The notes beneath the pieces are model-generated. The model was not told where the DNA came from. It ran no database searches and saw only the letters and a program-made list of their open reading frames with translations. Shown here one piece after another: positions 8,956 through 50,201 of a stretch of DNA of 64,000 nt; position 1 is the stretch's first letter; the number at the start of each line of letters is the position of its first letter. The DNA lies in the NCBI GenBank assembly GCA_023334545.1, contig JAADVB010000025.1, forward strand, positions 1 through 64,000, given 5' to 3'. Origin of the DNA: Salisapilia sapeloensis (taxonomy: Eukaryota; Oomycota; Peronosporomycetes; Peronosporales; Salisapiliaceae). The translations under genes were made by a program, and so were the position numbers.

Positions 8956-10651
8956 ATGAATTTCTCGCGCAAGAGCCCCAGCACGGCGAGTCCGTCCGAG
9001 AGCGGCGAGTGTCCGATCTGTCATCGCCATTTCCAGGAAGCCAATCTAGCAATGCATGTCGAGTTCTGTCTTCGGCCAGGAGCGAATGTGGGTAAGAAGA
9101 AGAGTGACGCAGCAGCAAGCTTCTTCGCGCCAGCGAAGAGCTCAGTACCGATGGAGTTTCGACCGGCTTCGGGATCTCAGAAGAAAACACCGGCGAAGCG
9201 TACGCTGGAGGCTACTGTCGTGGATGAGACACAAGAGACGGAGGAGAAGCGTCCGAGTCCGAAGCGACAGCGCTCGAACGACGGAGCTGCTATTCCTCTT
9301 GCAGAACGCATGCGACCAACGACATTGGATGACTTGGTAGGCCAGGAAGAGCTTTTGGGTGATGGAAAGCCATTATCTTTTCTTATTCAAAGGGATAAAG
9401 TGCCGAGTATGATTCTCTGGGGGTATGCCTGTCCGTATGCACTTCCAAGTACCTGTATTAACTCGCTGTGTAGACCTCCAGGATGTGGTAAGACGACGCT
9501 GGCGCACGTGATCTCCAAGCGCACTGGCTGTCGATTCATCAGTCTCTCGGGCGCGACGTCCAAGGCTTCGGACATGAAAGACGCAGTGGAGAAAGCACGA
9601 GGCGAGAAGAAGCTTCTAGGTCGACACACGATCGTCTTTGTGGATGAGATTCATCGCTTTAATAAGAATCAGCAGGTACCCCTCTCTTCTACTCGTCGCA
9701 AAGGTCTGGTCGTTAAGTACTGCTCTCTAGGACTTCTTCCTACCAGTCGTGGAAGACGGCACCATCACCTTGATTGGAGCTACGACCGAGAATCCCTCGT
9801 TCGAAGTCAACAACGCTCTGCTGAGTCGATGCAGAGTCTACACTTTACAGCAGCACACGCCGGCGTCCATCCAAAGCATCCTTGAGAGAGCGATCGCGAA
9901 CCCAGAATCGTCCGGATTGACGTCAGGTGCAAAGGATGTGTCCACGATAGAAGCAGAGCCGTCTGCGCTCCAGTACTTGGCCGAGCAGTGCGGTGGTGAT
10001 GCACGCGTGGCGCTCAATTGTCTCGAGATGGCTGTCCAAACATCCAGTCCAGAAGAATCCGACAAGGTCTGCATCAGCCTGGAGCACGTCCAGCGCTGCT
10101 TTGCAAAGCGTCAGACACTTTACTACGATAAGGACGGAGACTATCACTATGACTACATCAGTGCCTTCCACAAGTCCATTCGAGGCAGTGATGCCAATGC
10201 TGCTTTGTACTGGATGGCGAGGATGCTAGAGGGAGGAGAGGAACCTCTTTACGTCGCGAGACGGATGATTCGGATTGCCAGTGAAGACGTTGGATTAGCT
10301 GCACCGGAGATGCTGTCCCATGCAGTCGCAGCGCATCAGGCAGCGCACTTTATCGGCATGCCCGAGTGCGATGTCGTGCTGGCTCAGTGCGCGACGATGC
10401 TGGCTCGAGCGCCCAAGTCGGTCGAGGTGTACAAAGCCTACGGTCGTGTGAAGCAGTCGATAAAGGAATGGACTGGCGGACCCATGCCGCAAGTACCGCT
10501 CCACCTTCGGAACGCTCCGACGAAGCTTATGGAGAGCTTGGACTATGGCAAAGACTACAAGTACAACCCAGACTACACGGAGGAGGAGGTGAAGGACCAG
10601 ACGTACCTCCCAAAAGAGCTCGTAGGCACCGATTTCTTTGCAAAAAAGTAG
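8956..10651 (+). CDS. WRNIP1: WRNIP1/RarA (MgsA) replication-associated AAA+ ATPase
   Basis: AAA+ ATPase of the WRNIP1/Mgs1/RarA family, clamp-loader related, acting at stalled replication forks. Three exons: 8956-9422, 9474-9675, 9731-10651 (introns 51 and 55 bp, phases 2 and 0), 529 residues. An N-terminal UBZ4-type zinc finger is visible at Cys19, Cys22, His34, Cys38 and should bind ubiquitin. RMRPTTLDDLVGQEELLG precedes Walker A GPPGCGKTT (156-164), which is split by intron 1 just after TGG. Walker B is VFVDEIHRF, and sensor 1 is IGATTENPSFEVNNALLSR. The C-terminal half carries the tetramerisation region typical of the family. It is convergent with the 7-TM kinase gene, with 140 bp between stop codons. 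Confidence 0.95.
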
Positions 10652-10791: not shown

Positions 10792-13705
10792 TCATGGTAG
10801 AAGATCTGGCGAAGGTATCTCTCTAGTAGAATCGCCAGCGACAATATCGCCGTGGGTCGTTAGCGTTTCGTCACGCAGGAGATTCACTGTGAGTAGATTG
10901 TCCTCTGGGAAATTCTGGTACTTGCGTCGGAAACGACGACGAATAGTCTTGCCATTCTCAAGTCGCTGGCCAAGTTTCTGGCACAAACATACTTGGTCGT
11001 TTTTCGTCTTGCCTCCGTCCGATCGTGTCAAATATGTTCGCTCCACCGAGTCCATCTCCTGACGAGCTACGTAACCAGAGCTTGGTCGCTTCCGTTGGCG
11101 ATTCCACGGACTGAGGTAGTGGGATCGGTCCACACTGGCGAGAATAGGCGCGTCGTCCTTGTCTGAACCCCCCTTGACCTGTCCAGGTCCTTCGAGCATC
11201 GCAGCCGGAGGTTCAAGGCGTATCATTTCGTCGTCGAAGAAGTACAATGCGTCGCTGTACTCGCATGCCTTCGTATGCTTGACGTGATGCATGAGTCCAG
11301 AGTCCATCAGCATGTTTCCAAGTCGGATGCCTTCTCCGATCGTGTCGATGGCCTCTTCCTCACGCATTTGGTTGATGGCGTTTTCACCAGAGAAGCACAT
11401 GGTAGCGACGCCTCCATTCTTGATCTCGATCATGTCGTGACGCATGGCATCGAGGAGCTCCATCGAAAAGTCTGTCGCCAGATCTTCCTGAACGTCTTCC
11501 AGAGCATGGACGATTGCTTGCACAGACGGACGATGCTGTGGCTCTGTCTGCCACGCACTCTGAATGAGCTCTCGCAGCTGTGGGTGAACGGACTCGCCCA
11601 GCTTTGGTCGTTCGCCTGCTAAGACCGTCTCGAAGACTTTGAGGTGATTACCATTGGCCTGAGGATACTTTTCGCATCCGGGATTCAAGATATCCCACAT
11701 CGTTATTGCGAGTGAGTACACGTCAGCCGCTTCTCCATACGTGGCCAAACCGCCTTTGCCATTGATGATTTCCGGTGCCATGTAATCAACTGTCCCTCGA
11801 ACCGTCATTTTCTCATGGTAATTTCCATCGACGATCCCAGGTGCAGTATACGCACTGACGTCACTTGTCCTGCGTTCATATCCTTGCTCCAGGTCATGAG
11901 CCGAATGATCTGCACTAACGTAACCGCTCGTTCGACCGCTCTGAGCGATCGTTCTGCTCTGCTCAGTCGACTTTGTTGCCAGTTGCGTCTGACTAGCAGG
12001 TACGGTGCCAGTTCGGTAGCGATGACTGCCCCCTTCGTGTACCCATGCGATGTTGGCCCGAGGGAGACTTCGAGACTCACCAAAGTCTGTTAGCTTCACA
12101 TTTCCTTGCCCATCTATTGATTTGGCTATAAGGAACTTTTTGTGGTCGTACTGATAGCAGATAAGAATGTACCGATGAGGAAGTTTCCAGGCTTGATGTC
12201 GCGATGAACAAAGGCAGGAGCGAAGGAGTGAAGATAGGCGACGGCTCTATCGAAGCAAGAGATGAGATAAGTGCTCATAGTAGCTTGCGATCCTGTCGTA
12301 CCTCGCAGCGTCGATCATGTATCCTAAGCCTATGAGTTGTTGTTGTCGGAATGATTCTTCCCGGAGTCGACTTCGCTCACGACGCTGGATCGTGACTCCA
12401 GCGATTTCGTCCAAGCTTCCGATGCAGAGCTCTGACACAAGACAAACGGTCGGTGGAGATATGCAGAGACCCATGAACTAGAACAGAGATAGTTTTAGTA
12501 CGAATAGAACAAGAGTTGGATGGATAGTAGAGTATACCTGGACGACATTCGGATGGTTGAGGGCGCCACACAGAGCAGCTTCATGACTAAATGCTGCTAC
12601 AACTTCATCTGTCACACTCGTAGGTGTGTACACTTTGCACGCGACTGGTGTTTTTGAATGGAGAAGACCATTGTAGACGACAGCGCTTGACCCGACGCCG
12701 ATCCGCTGCTTGACATCCAAGTGGGCAAAGTCGATGACAAAGTGACGATGCATTTCGATCAAGACGTGGAGACCTTGTGCCGACGTATGCTCGTTCAGGT
12801 TAGCTTTTTGACGAAAGTGGCTTTGCAATGCCACTGCGCGTTCACCCAGACCTCGCCAGTGCTCAGTGTCCGACTTGAGTGTCCGCCAGGTGAAGATCGG
12901 CCCGAGGAATGACCAGATTAGAAAAGCGTAGACAAAGCCGAAGGCGACGTCGTACGACCAGCTCATGAACGCTTTCAAGTATAGAAAGTCGAGTGTGTGG
13001 TAGATGATGCCGAAGGCACAGTACTGCCGAAGTGTTTTGATGCAAGCTCGGCCAGGTGGACGGAATATGACGTAGATGAAGAGACCTACTGTCAATGTGT
13101 GGGAAATGGCGAGGACGAGGAGGGACGTATAGTTCTCTCCCTGATCACCGTATATAGCACTTAGTACAATAGCGATCGGAACGTTGTACGATGAGAGAAA
13201 GAACGAGATGAAGGTGGCACGCTTGACGGCTGGCACTGTGACGCTTTTCTGGAACATAAAGACCATGACGAAGACGAGCAGGAACTCCCTTCCGGCATTC
13301 AGAACTTCGCGCTGGACCAGACCAAAGTTGTTGATGCTCCCACCCATGGCCCAGCAGCATCCAAAGTAGACACTATCAAGGACACTTATCATTATGAATG
13401 GTACTATGGAAACTTGGAAGATAGACGTACAGGAAGGAGGTTGAGACGAAGCATAGTAGCCACAGTAGCGGCTCGAAAGCAGGTAGAATGACTTTTCGAG
13501 CAGCGTCACGCGCAAGGTCATCATCGTTGCTAAGCGCGACTTGGCGGTTGTACCGTACGTACACGATCATGATCATGAAGAGCATCGACATGACGCTGTA
13601 GCTTACGAAGCCAATGATATTGAATATCTTGTATCGGGACTCAACAAAGGCTGCAATGCTTTCCATCTCTTCCATAGAGGCGATGTCATTCATACTACTA
13701 GCCAT
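10792..13705 (-). CDS. 7-TM receptor fused to TKL protein kinase and DEP domain
   Basis: Membrane receptor-kinase fusion. Exons 13705-13431, 13372-12538, 12477-12302, 12246-12173 and 12125-10792 join with consistent phases (2, 0, 2, 1) to 897 residues. About seven hydrophobic helices fill residues 27-280. A TKL-type kinase follows: glycine loop RIGVGSSAVVYNG from 315, Lys338 in VACK, His-Arg-Asp at 443-445, Asp-Phe-Gly at 467-469, Ala-Pro-Glu at 570-572. All catalytic residues are present, but the DFG-APE segment is about 106 residues, far longer than usual. A DEP domain lies near 690-755. GPCR-TKL bigrams are known from oomycetes. The frame stays open upstream of the ATG at 13705 with a hydrophobic stretch (LLGAYCIALVSKCFANG), so a further 5' exon encoding a signal peptide is possible. 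Confidence 0.85.
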
Positions 13706-13756
13706 GTCGCTATCTAGTGCGAGTTGATACTCCGAGTCTGGGGACCTGTTGTCCAC

Positions 13757-14140: not shown

Positions 14141-17100
14141 TTACTTGGCGTAGAAGGATAGCTCCGTCGCGTTCTTAATCACCTCTCCAAAGTGGTTTTC
14201 CGCCGCTGCTTCATTAAACAAGATAAAGTCCTGGTCCTTACCACCCACGAGCTTAAAGAGCGGGCCGACAGGAATGAGTTCACAATTGCCATACTTGCTC
14301 TTCCGAATGCCTAGTCTCGATTGGATCGTAAACGACAGTTTCCGCAGTCCTTCCGAGATCTTGACGTCATCTTCATCATCCTTTTCTTTGCCATAGATAC
14401 TTATGTCCGGTAGCTGCTCATCGAAAAAGGACTTGTACAAGTCCATGCTCTCGGCAGGGATAGACGATCTAGAGTTCGATACGATCCGTTTGTACTCAAG
14501 TGCGTTCTCAAAGACCCTAGCGACATGTCATGAGTACTAAGGAGGAAAAAGAGAAGAAGAGAGAGCCTACTTTCGGTCTTCCGGATCAGTCTTGAGTCTC
14601 TTGGCGACAAGCACGCGGGCTTTCGTGTTCTGGTCCAGACCTGCATAAGGTCCTACCTGTAGCTTAAACGTCGCTCCAGAACGTACTTGAGCGTCTCGAA
14701 GGCTCTTGACGTCACTCGGGTCCAAGTTGTTTTCCTTGAGGTAGGCTTCAAAGAAGGCTTGGGCGTTATCATTCTCGGTTTCCCACAACGCAGGAGACTC
14801 GTTCCACTTGACGTACCGCTCATAGACATTGTCAGCACTTGTCACTGATGCATCTCCGACAAACTTCCGAGGACTACTAGATAGAATTAGAACGTTGCTC
14901 GAATCAAATGTAGGAAGACAACGTACCCTCTTCTCTGTGCGAACTCTTCGATCGTAATCTGTTCGTCTGGACGCTTGAGGACACCTCGTTGCGGAGCTGC
15001 CATCCGACTCGAAGGGCCGTTCGATGTGACTCGACTGAGTCTGTGCTCGTGTCCTCTGGCTTCGTGGTTACTCTCTCGATTGCGCCGAGCCTCCGGACGT
15101 CCGAGCGCGTCGTCACTGATATCCGGAGCACTGAGACTGCGTATGGCCTTGGTCGACAGTGGTTTCGATCGATAGTACGTAGCGTCCTCCAAGGCTTCTT
15201 CGACACTCGGCGCTCGAGACGAGGATGAGATGGAGGAGGAGGGAGACGTCGCGACTGGAGCCGTCTTCCTTCGGACGCTTCGTGGCTCCGCTTGACTGTC
15301 GTTGGACAAGTCCATGGGGTTCATGAACTTATGCCCGAGCGCCTTGTCAAAGGACGTGAGTTCCTCTGGGTGGGAGACCTGAAGGAAGCCATGCGACAGA
15401 GATGACGACGGGTTCCGAATACGCGGTCGACTCCGGACTTTCCACTGTCTCGAGGAGAGCTGGTCGAGAGCTGCATCAGGAGACTTGCGGCTCTCATCCT
15501 GCAGGTCGTAGAGTTTGGACTTTTCAAAGCTCTCCAGAGGTTCCTTCCACCATTCATCCAACAGCCGTCGACACTCTCGCACATACGCCTCTCTCTTCTC
15601 TTCATCTCGATTCGAGCCATCGTCTTCATAAACATTCATCGACGTCTCATCTGCTACAAAAGCTCTACGCTTCCTCTCTAGATGACTAGCAATCGTCGTC
15701 CGCATCTCCTGACAGGCTTGAACGCCATTCACGACGTCGTAATTATGCAAATAGTAATCTGAATCTAACTCCCACAATGGTGGCTCGTCCGGCTTCGGTG
15801 CAAAGTGGCCGAGGAAGATGTTGATCGCGTCTTGCTTGGCAGTGTCCGTGAACGAGTTGCTATAGTAGCGTCGGATGGAAGTAAGGAGCTCTCGATGCTT
15901 GACGTTCTCTCGATTCGCACTCGTCTTGACATTCTTATGGGCTTCCGAACCGCCGTATTGCATCGAGATGGCGTCTCCTGCGAGCGAGTACAAGTGCATG
16001 AGCACGCGCACGAGCTGCGACCTGCTCTCGAGGAGAGGCGTGTTCCGGATGCCCATGGCGTAGAGCTGCTGGCCGAGGACGCGCATGCCAACGCTGAACT
16101 GACTGACGTTGGTCCGGTCGAGGCAGTCGATGCAGTTCGTGCGGAGGACGCCTCGTTGCTCGAGCCAGTCGCCAGAGTCGCGCGGGATCGTCGGAGACGG
16201 AGGAGCGTCGTGGTACGAGATGGGAGGACTACTCAACGTCTCGTGTGCTTCGTTGAAGTCATTTTCCACCACTTCTCGGACGAAGGAATGAGGAAACGTA
16301 GGTCCGGCGTTGCGTTCAGAGGCAGAGCGACCGATGCGGCGCTTGGGTGCGCTGCAGAAGAAGCCTGTTTGGTGCAGCGCCCAGACAGCGACTTTATCCA
16401 GCGAGTGGAGGACGTTTAGACCCTTCTGTTTGCTCAGACGGGAGTAGTCGAGCGCAATGTACCGCACACGGTGTCTCGCAGGCATGAAGCCATTGAGGTA
16501 CTCGACGGCGTTCATGTACTCTGCGCCTACAATGACCTCTCTCTCCTTCTTCTCGCTCTGTTTCACGAGGTTGAGAGCAACGATGGGAGAGCCGTAGCGA
16601 GACAAGAGGTCAGCAAAGTGTTTTCTCGTCGCCGTGTACGTCGGATCGACGCGGTTGAGGACGATAGGAGGCTTGGGGAGCGTCGCAGACGTCTCTTGCG
16701 ACCAAAAGACCGGAATGGAACCTCTGTACTGGACAAACGAGCTGAATTTCCCGGCGCCCATGCTCTCGTCTTCAATGATCTGCTCCGTTTCGACGTCATT
16801 CGCGGCTTTGCCAGTGTCCGCGACCCCTCGCTTGAGGTATCTCGTGCCTGCAAAGTGTCTCGATCGTCGAGCTAAGAGAATGATGCTGAGAAGACGGCCA
16901 AAGACAGAGCACTTGCGCTGTTCGTAGCACCCAAGGACGATCGGGATGATCAGGTCGTTGCACGCGCCGTCGCTCAGACAGCTCCGAAGCTCCTTCGTAA
17001 GGTAGTGGTTCCAGCAGAACATTTCGTCCGGTGCAGGCGACACGGCCGTCATGTTGTACTGGAGTGAGCGCGTGACGTCGTAGGAATAGCTGAAGAAAAA

Positions 17101-18222
17101 GTCTTTGGTTAAGTCTATAAAGTGGAAGAGGCCGAGGTACCGCGCCTCAGCCTCTTCCTCCGGACTCGGGTTGAACCACCGATTGAGCCACGCCCACGTA
17201 CCTGGCTCTTCTTTCGGCCGACTGACATTCAGCTGCTGTGTCGCCGAGATGCCGTAGATGTTGTTGCCGCCGATCGTCCCGATGAGACGTCGTTGCGTGA
17301 CGAAGATAAAGTAGAAGCCTTGGAGGAAGCGGATGCAGCCGACGATCGCGACGGCCGTGAAGGCTCGCGTGAGTTTGCATGCGCCAGTGTACTTGGCTTG
17401 CTCTGCGAGCATCTGTAGCTTGGCTTCCATGTCTTCCCACGGGTATACGCGCTCGTCTTCCGTTAACACCTGCGAGAGCTGCGTCGGCTTCTCGATCGTC
17501 CGGTCTAGCTCCATCATCCGGAAGCGGAGGTAGTGCCGGTCGGAGCATACGACATAGTACGACTAGAGCAGAGGTCAGGAAGGAGGTGATAGTGGATGGT
17601 ACAAGAGAGGTACCGTGGCGGTCTCGTAGATGGTGAAGCGCTCGAAGAGGTTGGCTCGAGTCGGCAGACTCGGCGGACGCCTTCGACTCGGGAGGGACGA
17701 CGGGATGGACGTGTCGCTCGAGGCAGCACTGGACGTCTTCCGAGGAGTCGAAGTCGGGTCTGGGCCTTTCGACACTGGTGGACACAGTATAAAGGTCCGA
17801 GGCTTCTCACCTTTCCGAAGACTGTCTTGGACGGATCGAAGCGTATTGACCCTGTGCATGGCAAGAGGTGAGTGCTCGAATCGATCTTATAAGGCAGTGA
17901 AGAGGTAGACGTACCACCAGTCCAGGTCGTAGCTCGTGTCGTGTGATAGAAACCACTCTTTATTGTCGCCACCAGCAGACAGCTCTAGGCAGTCGGCGTT
18001 GCTCTCTTCCGAGTGCGTCATGTCGATCAGACAGTCGGCGACAGGGATCGTCTCGAGGCATCGACCCTGCTGTTCTTCATACACAACGAATGCGCCTTCT
18101 TCCAACGAAACTTCACACCATACATCCTGCCACTCGCCAGTCGACTCATCGGCAGCTGAGTCTGGCAACGACCAACGCAGCAAGTGGCCACGAACCGGAG
18201 CACTCTCGCCCTCTTCCTCCAT
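14141..18222 (-). CDS. FIG4: PH-domain SAC phosphoinositide phosphatase (FIG4/SAC3 type)
   Basis: Predicted phosphoinositide 5-phosphatase acting on endolysosomal PI(3,5)P2. Five exons: 18222-17915, 17851-17614, 17562-14927, 14876-14571, 14516-14141, phases 2, 0, 2, 2, giving 1287 residues. Residues 1-120 form a pleckstrin-homology-like domain that ends with a Trp-rich helix crossing intron 1. FERFTIYET then SYYVVCSDRHYLRF opens the SAC domain as in Fig4. The catalytic CX5R motif is Cys659 to Arg665 in RTNCIDCLDRTN, followed by SMQYGGSEAHKNVKT and RRYYSNSFTDTAKQDAINIF, typical of FIG4 rather than SAC1. A Ser-rich linker and an extra C-terminal region of about 300 residues follow. Human FIG4 is about 907 residues and has no PH domain, so this is an extended architecture. 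Confidence 0.88.
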
Positions 18223-38494: not shown

Positions 38495-40807
38495 ATGCCA
38501 AACTACGACAGAGCAGATCATGTGCCGAAGGACGACGAGCCACCAAGAGTTCGGCCAAACGACGACGCTATCGACTGTTCGGACGATTGTAGCGAAAGCC
38601 AAAGTCTTTCCCTTGACTTTTCAACACGAAGTCGTAACGTCGATCAACCAGGCGCACAAGACAGCATGTCCACTCGTGACCAGAGCTCAACACGACGCAA
38701 TAATTGGACTTCAGGTGGCCAGTTGGAGTCATCCAAGGCTTTAGAGAGTAGAGCCTCTTTCGAGTGCTGGATGCTATGGCACGATAGCGAGGGAGACGCA
38801 GTGAAATTACAGCATGGCAATAGGCACGTGAAGCTAAAGTCTCTGTCGGATTGGTCTCAAGGATTGAAAAAGCTATGTGGTGGGGATAAATGTGGAGAAG
38901 AGATCTTGGTCAAGGTCGTTCTGAATGCAGAGCATAATGTACCTACGTTTGCATTTAAAGCACCTGAGGACCCCAACCTTCGAGTGAAATTACTCCTATT
39001 GCCTGATTCGATGCAAGGTTTCCGATCTGCTTCCGAAATCTCTTTTGACGGATTTAATATCGAAGCTAGAGATGGAAGATGGCTGGCAGATCATCAGACC
39101 GTATCTTTGCTGTACGTGTCACCATACGTGGTAGATTGGATGTTGTATTAACCTCTCTCTCCTATAGATCATTTAAAGATTGTCACATCCCGAACCTACG
39201 TCTAAACCCAAAAGTTGAGTACGAAAAAGTGTACGTCTACTGCTCTATTCGTCTTGTAGGATTGCTCGTGACTCATCCTTCTATGTAGGGAGTTTACAAG
39301 TACGAGCATGAACGAGTTCCCGACAGAGCTCTTCTCTAGTAATGCATCTCTAAAGTCGCTTACGATGAGAAGCTGTGAGATCGAGGAGCCTATTCGGCTG
39401 AAAAGAAAAGAAGCTGAACATCTCGAAAGCATATCATCAGTCACGCTGGATCAAAAAGAGATCGATAACAGTCACTCCAACACGTCCGATTGTCAGAGCA
39501 AAGTCGATATTCACAAGATTCCAGTCTGCATTACCGGTACGCTTGTCTTTTTATACGTATCGCTAGGTAGACAATTGACTCATGACGCTTATGTGCATGT
39601 AGATGACCCTGTCTACGCAAAGCTTTTAAACAACTCGAGAAACGATTCACGCAGTGATATGCAAGAGCCTCATGGAGACTCTCCGATGTCACTGGAAGCT
39701 TCTCAGCTGGGTGATTCCGGATCAAGTCCTGGTAACGTGGAAGCTAAAGAAAGCAACAGCTCTTCCACCGTCACCATCCTCGCGTCTACACTATCGATTG
39801 TCGGGGCAGTACTACTCATCATAGCTGCTTTCATCATCTACCGTCGGCGTAAGTTCAAGAGTCGTCTAGAGGAAGGATGCACGAACGAGTCGGTGCTTGG
39901 AACGAACAAAAGTGGTCGTGGCGCAAGTTTCTATTCCTCTCGCAACAGTAAGCTCCTATCGAGTTACACTTCTGTGCTTTTAAACGGGTATGAGCTCAAG
40001 CCTGGTGTTGTGACACTGGACAAGACTCTTGGCCATAAGAATCTGTGGTTGGGATCGTATAATGATCAGCGGATGGTGGTGCTTGTGATTATTGAAAAGC
40101 ATTGGAAAGGAGCGGAGAAGCAAAAGGTCGATGCGTTATCTTCTCTGGTACCTCTTCGTCATGAGAATATTGTAGCTTTCCACGGCTACTGCTTCGACTC
40201 GACGGACCGACTACTTGTTGCGGTCGAGTACATGTGTCGAGGGAGTTTGCAGATGCTCTTAAAGACGACCGAGACAGAGATCTCATGGATCCAACGACAG
40301 CAAATGATTGAAGATATATGCGTAGCTCTCTTGTTCCTCCGGTCGAGAGAGACGACAGTCTACTTCCAGACACTTACGAGCAAAAGCGTCTTGTGCACCG
40401 ACGACTTCCGTTGCAAGTTGGATATCTTAGATCTTCAGAGGAAGTTACGAGGAGATGAGCGTCCGACACTCATGTTCGGGAACGGCAGAGTGGTGTATGA
40501 GGCACCCGAAGTACTGGCTGGTGGCGAACGCACGTCTGCATCGGAGGTGTACTCCTTTGGCATTCTCATGTGCGAGATCGCGTGTCGAGGCGACGTCTTT
40601 GACAATGCGTTCAGTGGTCAAGGCAATACGCTACGAGAGCTAGAGCTCGCGCAAGAGATTATGTCGGGTAGTATGCAGCCCGTGCTACCAGCTGACAACG
40701 TCTCCTTCCGTACTGCTGCAATCCACTGCCTGTCGTTCGACGCATCGAAGCGACTTAGTCTGACTCAAATCTTGGAGCTGCTTCAATCAGCCGAAGAAGA
40801 GCTGTAG
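38495..40807 (+). CDS. Membrane receptor-like TKL pseudokinase
   Basis: Three exons, 38495-39111, 39168-39218, 39289-40807 (phases 2 and 2), 728 residues. The N-terminal 300 residues include irregular leucine-rich segments (FKDCHIPNLRLNPKVE, FSSNASLKSLTMRSCEIEE). One strong membrane helix lies at about 383-407 (ILASTLSIVGAVLLIIAAF), followed by an Arg/Lys stop-transfer. The kinase-like domain fills 465-728. The glycine loop reads LGHKNLWLGSY and the beta-3 segment VVLVIIEKH. No His-Arg-Asp is visible where expected (YFQTLTSKSVLC), and no Asp-Phe-Gly (KLDILDLQR). YEAPEVLAGG and SFGILMCEIACRGDVFDN keep the C-lobe. It is therefore a pseudokinase of receptor type. No signal peptide is visible at the chosen start, so a 5' exon may be missing. 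Confidence 0.8.
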
Positions 40808-48578: not shown

Positions 48579-50201
48579 TTATTCCGAACGCTTTGTGTCT
48601 TTTGTGTTGCGCATCGAGAGACCCAAGGCACCGACTGCTATGATCAGGATAAAGAGAGCAGGGCCCCAGATCGACGATGATGAGGTATACTCTGGCACTC
48701 GATCTTGTCCGCCAGTCCCGCCGTCATTTGCTACTGCTGCATGTGCTGCACCTGTGTCAGACGAAACTAGGGGGCGCGGACCGATGCCTGGTGCGTCTTC
48801 AAAAGCGTCCTCCGTAGCATTCGTCTTGGGTTTCTTTGGTGGACATGGCTTGACGACTTCTTCCTCCTCTTCCGTCTCTTCACGCAGTCGCTTTGGTGTG
48901 CAGGCACTAGGACGCTTGTCCTCCGGACCGTCGTACGCGTTGCAGACAGCTTGCTGCAGCACTGCAGCTTTAATTCCTTCACGTGCTGTCCCGACGATCT
49001 CGTCGTTTATTAGTACGTACGGAGACCACTTGACGTGGACGCTTCCTAGTTTGGAGAGCGTTTGACGTAGCATCTCGTCACCTTTCGTAGCCTCACACTC
49101 CTTGACGCTACTAGCTACGGACGGATCTAGACAGTAATCTACACGTTGCCTCCACGTCGTGCCACGTCGGTCTTTGCTCTCGATACATGCGAGGCCTTGG
49201 ACGTGTTCCAAAGGGCTCTTGGTGTGCTCTCCGACACACGCAAGCCATTTATGGCCGTTGCATTCGCGCTTACCGCTTAGACAGGCTGGGTTACCAGACG
49301 TGTCGACATACATGCCAGCAGCAGGAGCTGCCGTGAGATCGATGATGTCTCGGAACTCTGGATCACGCATCAGAGTTGACAGCGCCTTGATGATAAACGC
49401 TCCACAGCCAGGACAAAAGGCACGGTAGAAGACGTCTAGTTTGACTTTTTCACGTCCAGTAGGAGCAGGGGGACTCGTCTGTGGCTCCTCTGGTTTTGCT
49501 AATGGTGGCGCAGTGGGAGGCGTTTCTTTCTTGGAAGGAAAATGTGTTTGAGCTCCTACGAGGTCGGCGCAGATGTCCGGATACCCTTCCGGAGATCCTG
49601 CGTATGCTTTACAGATACCTGTCTTAACCTCTTTAAGTCCAATGCCACTGTTTTCATCACCAAGCTGCGCTCCGTCGATGCGGATGTAGGGCATCCAACC
49701 GACTTTATCTGCTCCAGTGCGATGCACGGCGTCGACCATGAGCCAGATACTACGAGATGGGTAGCATTCCTCAACGTAGGCAATGTCTTCGGGGGTAAGA
49801 CAGTACTTGAGTTTTGCAGCCCATTCATGGTATGGTCCAGACGCCTCGCTTTCAATGCAACCGATGAGCTCGAGCTGTTTCATCACGTCGTGCTTGTATT
49901 TCTCGATGACGCAGATCTGATAGCGATGTCCATCACATTCCTCTACTCCTTCTTCACAGTCAAGTTCCCCCTTCTCAACCATCGTTCCAGCTGCAGGCAC
50001 GAGTTCTAGGTCAATAAACGGCGCGAATTGTGGATCGTTCATGAGCTTCACGAGCGGTTCTTGGACAAACCAGACACAGGATGGACAATATGCTCGATAC
50101 AGAATCTGAACTTTCATCTGATACGAACGTAGATCTTGTGCGTAGATGCATGCTAGAAAGAGTGCTAGAGACAGTAGAAAGATTCTGCATGCACCTAGCA
50201 T
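48579..50201 (-). CDS. Tandem GILT thiol reductase with C-terminal membrane helix
   Basis: Protein of the gamma-interferon-inducible lysosomal thiol reductase (GILT) family, which reduces disulfides in acidic vesicles. Single exon, 540 residues, about twice the usual 220-250. Signal peptide 1-21; first domain with active-site Cys39-Pro-Ser-Cys42 and a cysteine block at 82, 89 and 97 (family pattern CxxGxxEC). A Pro/Thr-rich linker follows near 218-250, then a second domain with Cys263-Pro-Gly-Cys266 and the same cysteine block at 307, 314 and 322. An acidic linker and a membrane helix at about 511-529 end it. Both active sites keep CxxC, so both halves may be active. It is convergent with GOST paralogue B (66 bp). 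Confidence 0.9.
   Translation of the reverse strand: MLGACRIFLLSLALFLACIYAQDLRSYQMKVQILYRAYCPSCVWFVQEPLVKLMNDPQFAPFIDLELVPAAGTMVEKGELDCEEGVEECDGHRYQICVIEKYKHDVMKQLELIGCIESEASGPYHEWAAKLKYCLTPEDIAYVEECYPSRSIWLMVDAVHRTGADKVGWMPYIRIDGAQLGDENSGIGLKEVKTGICKAYAGSPEGYPDICADLVGAQTHFPSKKETPPTAPPLAKPEEPQTSPPAPTGREKVKLDVFYRAFCPGCGAFIIKALSTLMRDPEFRDIIDLTAAPAAGMYVDTSGNPACLSGKRECNGHKWLACVGEHTKSPLEHVQGLACIESKDRRGTTWRQRVDYCLDPSVASSVKECEATKGDEMLRQTLSKLGSVHVKWSPYVLINDEIVGTAREGIKAAVLQQAVCNAYDGPEDKRPSACTPKRLREETEEEEEVVKPCPPKKPKTNATEDAFEDAPGIGPRPLVSSDTGAAHAAVANDGGTGGQDRVPEYTSSSSIWGPALFILIIAVGALGLSMRNTKDTKRSE

Follow-up and report, generated by a model that had tools for sequence, protein, structure and literature searches.

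A GPCR-TKL-DEP bigram receptor of the oomycete Salisapilia sapeloensis and the expanded kinase activation segment of its family

Introduction

Oomycete bigram receptors in which a GPCR-like 7-TM region is followed by a TKL kinase and a C-terminal DEP domain were published in 2018 (van den Hoogen et al., mBio, PMC5784254). P. infestans is reported there to have 17 GPCR-TKLs, eight of which bear a single C-terminal DEP, and direct, G-protein and GRK-like modes of action were discussed for such proteins in the 2018 oomycete work. The GPCR-TKL/K proteins of acanthoecid choanoflagellates (PMC12716839) likewise consist of a 7-TM region fused to a TKL-type kinase, but their authors infer a separate, convergent origin. 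These authors (eLife 2025) knew of no GPCR-kinase fusion whose function had been characterised. The GPCR-bigram literature among the matches listed in our search consisted of the two 2018 papers only, and no paper was found among them on the P. agathidicida GPCR-TKL, whose name occurs among the homologues described below.

We analysed a receptor gene of Salisapilia sapeloensis that lies on contig JAADVB010000025.1, in a window (the whole stretch of DNA analysed) of 64,000 nucleotides. An initial annotation had classed it as an oomycete GPCR-kinase bigram, and both the domain order and the homologues bear this out. The protein resembles the P. infestans-type bigrams in having a 7-TM region, a TKL kinase and one DEP in the same order and in coming from an oomycete; its architecture is therefore already known, since GPCR-TKLs with a C-terminal DEP have been published. 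Three features found here, an expanded activation segment, a linker motif and a CxC tail, are not mentioned in the matching passages of the published bigram accounts.

Results

The locus runs on the minus strand from 13705 to 10792 and comprises a five-exon CDS with four GT-AG introns (Table 1), encoding one open polypeptide of 893 residues. The initial annotation had proposed such a gene, and the model holds except for the acceptor of intron 4. A 47-nt intron 4 reproduces the earlier numbering exactly (HRD 443, DFG 467, APE 570) but adds four residues, AKSI, that are missing from 15 aligned homologues; these read NFL-VDxxxxVKL at the site where the 47-nt model gives NFLIAKSIDGQGNVKL, and this model was rejected. 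An acceptor 12 nt further (12114) yields a 59-nt intron and the junction NFLIDGQGNVKL (GNFLI joined to DGQGNVKL), which fits the homologues without a gap. The start formerly placed at 13756 was also abandoned, the frame containing no ATG between the upstream stop and 13705. Homologue N-termini (14 shown) extend from 1 to at least 60 residues ahead of TM1.

Separate genes for the membrane and kinase parts were rejected and are, as judged from the alignments, very unlikely because single-chain homologues cover the query. A retained intron as the source of the long loop described below also appears unlikely and was discarded: the insert is an open frame of 243 nt, none of the 21 possible GT-AG pieces of 3n length inside it starts with any of the seven donor hexamers tested (including all four of the receptor gene), and relatives carry inserts in the same place.

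Four other ORFs were noted in the window. The next gene upstream, on the same strand, encodes a SacI-type phosphoinositide phosphatase (14887-17562, minus strand), a neighbourhood that may be due to chance. The C-terminal part of an MgsA-type AAA ATPase (9731-10651, plus strand) is convergent with the receptor gene and ends about 140 nt from its stop. Further away lie a kinase ORF (39308-40807, plus strand) whose PK_Tyr_Ser-Thr match begins at profile position 27, the start of the N-lobe being missing, and a 540-aa ORF with two GILT (thiol reductase) matches (48579-50201, minus strand).

Table 1. Features of the receptor gene, in positions of the window.
Feature	Positions	Strand	Basis
Exon 1: start Met, TM1, first cytosolic loop, TM2 start (residues 1-91)	13431..13705	-	Gene model and homologue alignment
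Intron 1, 58 nt, GT-AG	13373..13430	-	Joined residues match homologues gap-free
Exon 2: TM2 to TM7, linker, kinase N-lobe (residues 92-370)	12538..13372	-	Gene model and homologue alignment
TM7-kinase linker (residues 251-311), motif DTEHWRG...HxLIEMH...IIDF	12715..12897	-	Conservation, family alignment
Catalytic Lys338	12634..12636	-	Homologue alignment
Intron 2, 60 nt, GT-AG	12478..12537	-	Gene model
Exon 3: kinase hinge to alpha-E (residues 371-428)	12302..12477	-	Gene model and homologue alignment
Intron 3, 55 nt, GT-AG	12247..12301	-	Gene model
Exon 4: catalytic loop with HRDIKPGN (residues 429-453)	12173..12246	-	Gene model
Intron 4, 59 nt, GT-AG; last base 12126 corrected to 12114	12114..12172	-	Homologue alignment
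Exon 5: DFG to stop (residues 454-893 and stop)	10792..12113	-	Gene model
Activation segment, DFG 463 to APE 568, 106 residues	11770..12087	-	Gene model and homologues
Variable insert in activation segment (residues 473-553)	11815..12057	-	Conservation; counterpart in homologue P0004 modelled disordered
DEP domain (residues about 690-746)	11236..11406	-	Pfam 24.4 bits, below cut-off; relatives
C-terminal CxC-KLGQRL-basic element (about residues 828-850)	10924..10992	-	Family alignment

In the 893-residue protein a 7-TM region is followed by the TKL kinase and the DEP. Six of the seven helices proposed at first are clear in a hydropathy scan, which also flags kinase residues 367-400, a false positive; TM6 comes from homology and from the model of a relative. 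Since the best 50 matches of each whole-chain fold comparison were kinases, a homologue consisting of the 7-TM region only (P0146) was modelled separately; its model has seven membrane helices at a mean pLDDT of 86.6, and the receptor protein aligns with the family across this region. The 7-TM part has no Pfam match, and its profile found no solved structure at E <= 1 in a sequence search.

The kinase matches Pfam Pkinase (E 2e-36). It is intact, as had been claimed, with Lys338, HRD 443-445 and an APE (566-568) all kept, although its DFG, previously numbered 467-469, now stands at 463-465. Its nearest solved relatives in a profile search (best 60 of 291) are CTR1, TAK1 and MLK1 (MAP3K9), which are TKL kinases; HRDIKPxN and GTxDYMAPE are Ser/Thr-kinase patterns. 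BTK, TAK1 and CTR1 lead one fold comparison, and the receptor tyrosine kinases MET and MerTK a second. The fold by itself does not single out TKL, because MET, MerTK and BTK are nearest by fold.

The DEP scores 24.4 bits in Pfam (E 2.8e-5) against a cut-off of 32.7. The profile search does return the domain that the initial annotation had read from the sequence, and the outcome named there as refuting it, a lack of any DEP score, did not occur. Group members P0004, P0005 and P0015 carry the Pfam annotation, and at least 45 residues are aligned across the domain in 115 of 116 rows. It was also found at E <= 0.01 in 36 of 43 relatives without a DEP annotation, a set made up of 38 of the 63 unannotated listed homologues plus five pseudokinase rows and biased toward proteins that resemble the DEP-bearing query. 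Sequence comparison with the relatives thus confirms the assignment despite its sub-threshold score, and DEP appears to be more widespread in the family than Pfam cut-offs show. Its presence is not the novelty it had been taken for, given the P. infestans members and these 36 relatives. Closer to the C-terminus, the strict CxC-KLGQRL-basic pattern is matched in 78 of 116 rows; that it contacts the membrane would be a guess.

The protein search scored 7976 candidates and gave 443 homologues with E <= 0.001, the 120 best of which were listed. All organism names visible among these are oomycetes, many rows having no name. Five incomplete or doubtful gene models (P0092, P0097, P0103, P0110 and P0120) were dropped, leaving 116 rows, query included, for the alignment, the tree and the pattern counts. 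In a FastTree tree built with the loop left out and rooted on C118 (P0001 and P0002 cut to 800 residues, C159 and C409 joined from pieces), the receptor gene falls in a group with 22 rows at a support of 0.997. These are P0057, P0004, P0013, P0064, P0018, P0022 and P0025, together with P0010 and the rows from Phytophthora and Nothophytophthora; P0015 of P. infestans is a member of the group. Own-genome placements and loop lengths from the tree analysis were left out, and paralogue lengths were measured separately. The locus almost certainly encodes a GPCR-TKL-DEP bigram receptor that groups with Phytophthora, Nothophytophthora and Globisporangium proteins. Three other homologues, P0001, P0002 and P0003 from Thraustotheca and Achlya (1205-1529 residues), each contain two kinase segments and are possibly tandem bigrams or fused gene models.

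Catalytically altered relatives were also seen. On contig C33 of the same genome (37525-39498), a 7-TM kinase-like ORF carries HDE in place of HRD and GFG in place of DFG and lacks an APE. The C-terminal part of this ORF aligns with the receptor query over the DEP region and lies outside the genome's DEP profile matches. Five relatives, some of them in Globisporangium and Lagenidium, have GFG with HRE or HRN and no APE in the next 120 residues. From these residues, the C33 ORF and the five relatives would form an inactive branch of the bigrams. Such a kind of receptor is not new, because P. infestans is known to have membrane TKLs that are inactive (2010 kinome).

The distance from DFG to APE remains 106 residues after the correction of intron 4, and the loop is rich in Ser and Thr as first described (22% against 13% in the whole protein). 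Over 121 rows (listed homologues and query) the segment measures 31-126 residues, with a median of 83, and reaches at least 103 in 40 of them, counting the query and P0092 and P0097, both without a DFG end. It spans 48-126 in the 115 rows left once three Saprolegniales rows, P0092, P0097 and P0120 (no DFG) are removed from the list, and 91-126 in the 22 rows of the ortholog group. In Saprolegniales it measures 25-37 (14 kinase segments from 11 proteins; a twelfth, P0151, gave no match). The receptor kinases of S. sapeloensis itself have 106 (query gene), 62, 50, 48, 44 and 28 residues, and eleven other kinase segments at the loci examined have 26-39. The values of 28 and 44 belong to two distant paralogues, and short segments therefore occur in distant paralogues of the same lineage too. 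The loop called giant at first is as long as stated but is not peculiar to this gene: long segments are common to the orthologues, and the comparison with other oomycete bigrams makes them a trait of many family members.

The insertion site is fixed, between DFGESRSLP and MTVxGTxDYMAPE, whereas the inserted sequence varies. The insert of the receptor protein is 14% identical to those of 20 orthologues (20 of the group's 22 rows were used), against 62-71% for the flanking kinase parts. Within 11 Phytophthora rows, a set that excludes P0010 (105 residues), the insert is 60% identical against 92-98% for the flanking parts, and the whole segment keeps to 111-117 residues. An AlphaFold2 model of the homologue P0004 shows the insert as disordered, with a pLDDT of 31-45 for the loop against values mostly over 80 for kinase, 7-TM and DEP. 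Pro-directed Ser/Thr sites occur in the insert of 19 of 20 orthologues but in neither the receptor protein nor P0064. They were rejected as a common code, and a single phosphorylation code shared by the inserts seems unlikely on this pattern because the receptor protein does not have the sites.

No report of an activation-segment expansion in oomycete GPCR-TKLs was found in the open-licence literature, where a single paper matched activation loop and oomycete TKLs together; in that paper "activation loop" refers, where shown, to lipid kinases. A likeness exists with plant AGCVIII kinases, in which a variable insertion of 36-118 aa separates the Mg-binding loop from the T-loop (PMC3499706). In one of them, PID, the insertion directs plasma-membrane localisation (same source). 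These enzymes differ in belonging to the AGC group; no AGC kinase was recognised among the solved kinases nearest to the receptor kinase by profile (best 60 of 291). The autoinhibitory segment of NDR/LATS is another precedent for a long activation-segment insert, and both NDR/LATS and MASTL/Greatwall are soluble enzymes of other kinase groups. The activation-segment insertion of MASTL/Greatwall has 548 residues (PMC6930252).

A regulatory role for the loop is tentatively proposed, at somewhat less than even odds. The strongest competing explanation, possible yet rather doubtful, is that the loop tip merely accepts disordered sequence and that its length drifts in the lineage, the insert being a tolerated expansion without function. 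The low information of the insert (1.02 bits against 3.5 in the kinase N-lobe), the lengths of 48-126 among listed homologues outside Saprolegniales and the two short own-genome paralogues agree with such drift, and the 14% identity also fits a loss of constraint. Drift accounts less well for the 60% identity and narrow length range in Phytophthora, or for the minimum of 91 residues kept throughout the 22-member ortholog group.

The TM7-kinase linker is as conserved as the kinase core, with a mean information of 3.46 bits; the mean is 3.53 in the kinase N-lobe, 2.57 in the 7-TM region and 1.02 in the insert. The DTxxWxG pattern is matched in 112 of 116 rows, and its D and T are present in all 116. 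An alignment of 49 rows that covers the 7-TM region and the beginning of the linker has 11 invariant columns; with the topology assigned from hydropathy and the P0146 model, every one of them lies in a cytosolic loop, at the cytosolic end of a helix or in the linker. The 7-TM blocks of lowest information are loops taken as extracellular. This pattern is as expected if a single conserved inward mechanism, ending in the kinase, serves to read varied cues. The conservation of the cytosolic side and linker thus suggests a direct coupling of receptor to kinase, for and against which we consider the odds even.

Class A GPCRs have a (D/E)RY closing TM3 and an NPxxY within TM7, and neither motif is present here. 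At these sites the family consensus reads MLQKSVS and WGSLCPLVIWRV, and the receptor protein MFQKSVT and WSFLGPIFTWRT. Microbial (type I) rhodopsins bind retinal through a Lys in TM7, and no Lys was found in TM7 (columns 240-257) in any of the 116 rows.

G-alpha was not found in the 19.5 Mb assembly by a PF00503 profile search or by two motif patterns; of the five PF00503 matches, four were read by eye as ARF/ARL-type and the fifth lies on C109. The assembly contains an intact G-beta (C405, 450 bits), 13 RGS matches and three arrestin-N matches. Its completeness looks good by two proxies, with 15 proteasome and 8 Cpn60/TCP1 places in our own grouping, where about 14 and 9 are expected. The missing G-alpha may be an assembly gap, and the RGS genes speak for a G-alpha, whether still present or since lost. 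As support for G-protein-free signalling, the negative G-alpha search is only suggestive, given the matches to G-beta, RGS and arrestin-like sequences. The earlier proposal that the receptor signals without a G protein is favoured by the conserved cytosolic side and linker, but was already a published hypothesis.

Discussion

Our preferred explanation, to which we give a probability of about 0.5, is that of a bigram receptor with a directly coupled, membrane-held kinase and a regulatory loop. The 7-TM part would sense a cue, and the conserved cytosolic loops and helical TM7-kinase linker would relay the change directly to the Ser/Thr-type TKL kinase. DEP and the C-terminal CxC/basic element may hold this kinase to the membrane. 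The activation segment, expanded and disordered, would act as a regulatory tail in the gate of the active site, phosphorylated in cis or in trans or serving as a docking site, while its conserved MTVxGTxDYMAPE end would keep the catalytic part intact. Several observations weigh against this explanation: the low insert identity among orthologues, the Pro-directed sites that the receptor protein does not share, the Saprolegniales and the two own-genome paralogues that manage with no long insert, the fold nearest to MET, MerTK and BTK, and the presence of G-beta and RGS. The published state of the field, in which the eLife 2025 authors know of no characterised fusion (PMC12716839), also counts against it.

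The kinase could instead substitute for a GRK, as in the model of van den Hoogen and Govers, by phosphorylating receptor tails so that arrestin is recruited and G-protein signalling ends. This proposal is published, the published bigram work states that certain RGS proteins bind the tails of GPCRs through their DEP domains, and arrestin-N and RGS matches are both found in the genome. We nevertheless regard it as unlikely here, since the pathway to be desensitised may be missing along with G-alpha; the same shortage of characterised class members applies to it.

A more far-reaching combination is rather improbable as a whole. In this combination the 7-TM part would be a retinal-less rhodopsin-fold sensor, not a canonical GPCR, that drives its own kinase through the invariant cytosolic side and linker, analogous to an enzyme-rhodopsin. 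The activation segment of the lineage would be a disordered, fast-evolving regulatory tail, the catalytically dead sister receptors may be partners, and the receptors would work without G-alpha.

That the receptor signals as an ordinary GPCR through a G protein, its kinase being silent or acting downstream, is decidedly improbable: such a mode would account for G-beta and the RGS matches, but not for a kinase that keeps Lys, HRD, DFG and APE or for family invariants in the linker leading to it, and G-alpha was not found in the assembly. An artefact of the gene model, in which two genes were joined or a retained intron was taken for the loop, is scarcely credible, since homologues keep the same domain order in one chain, inserts occupy the same site across genera, the genome has four single-frame paralogues, and GC is 35-45% in the four introns against about 54% in the insert.

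The receptor gene alone is of modest interest, its architecture being already published; it is for the family features, namely the expanded segment, the linker motif and the CxC tail, that no description was found. Returning to direct coupling, the conserved linker, the expanded segment, the widespread DEP and the pseudokinase branch offer concrete sites at which to ask whether a 7-TM receptor switches its kinase directly. For the activation segment, the Saprolegniales (25-37 residues) and the other listed homologues (48-126) provide a natural comparison.
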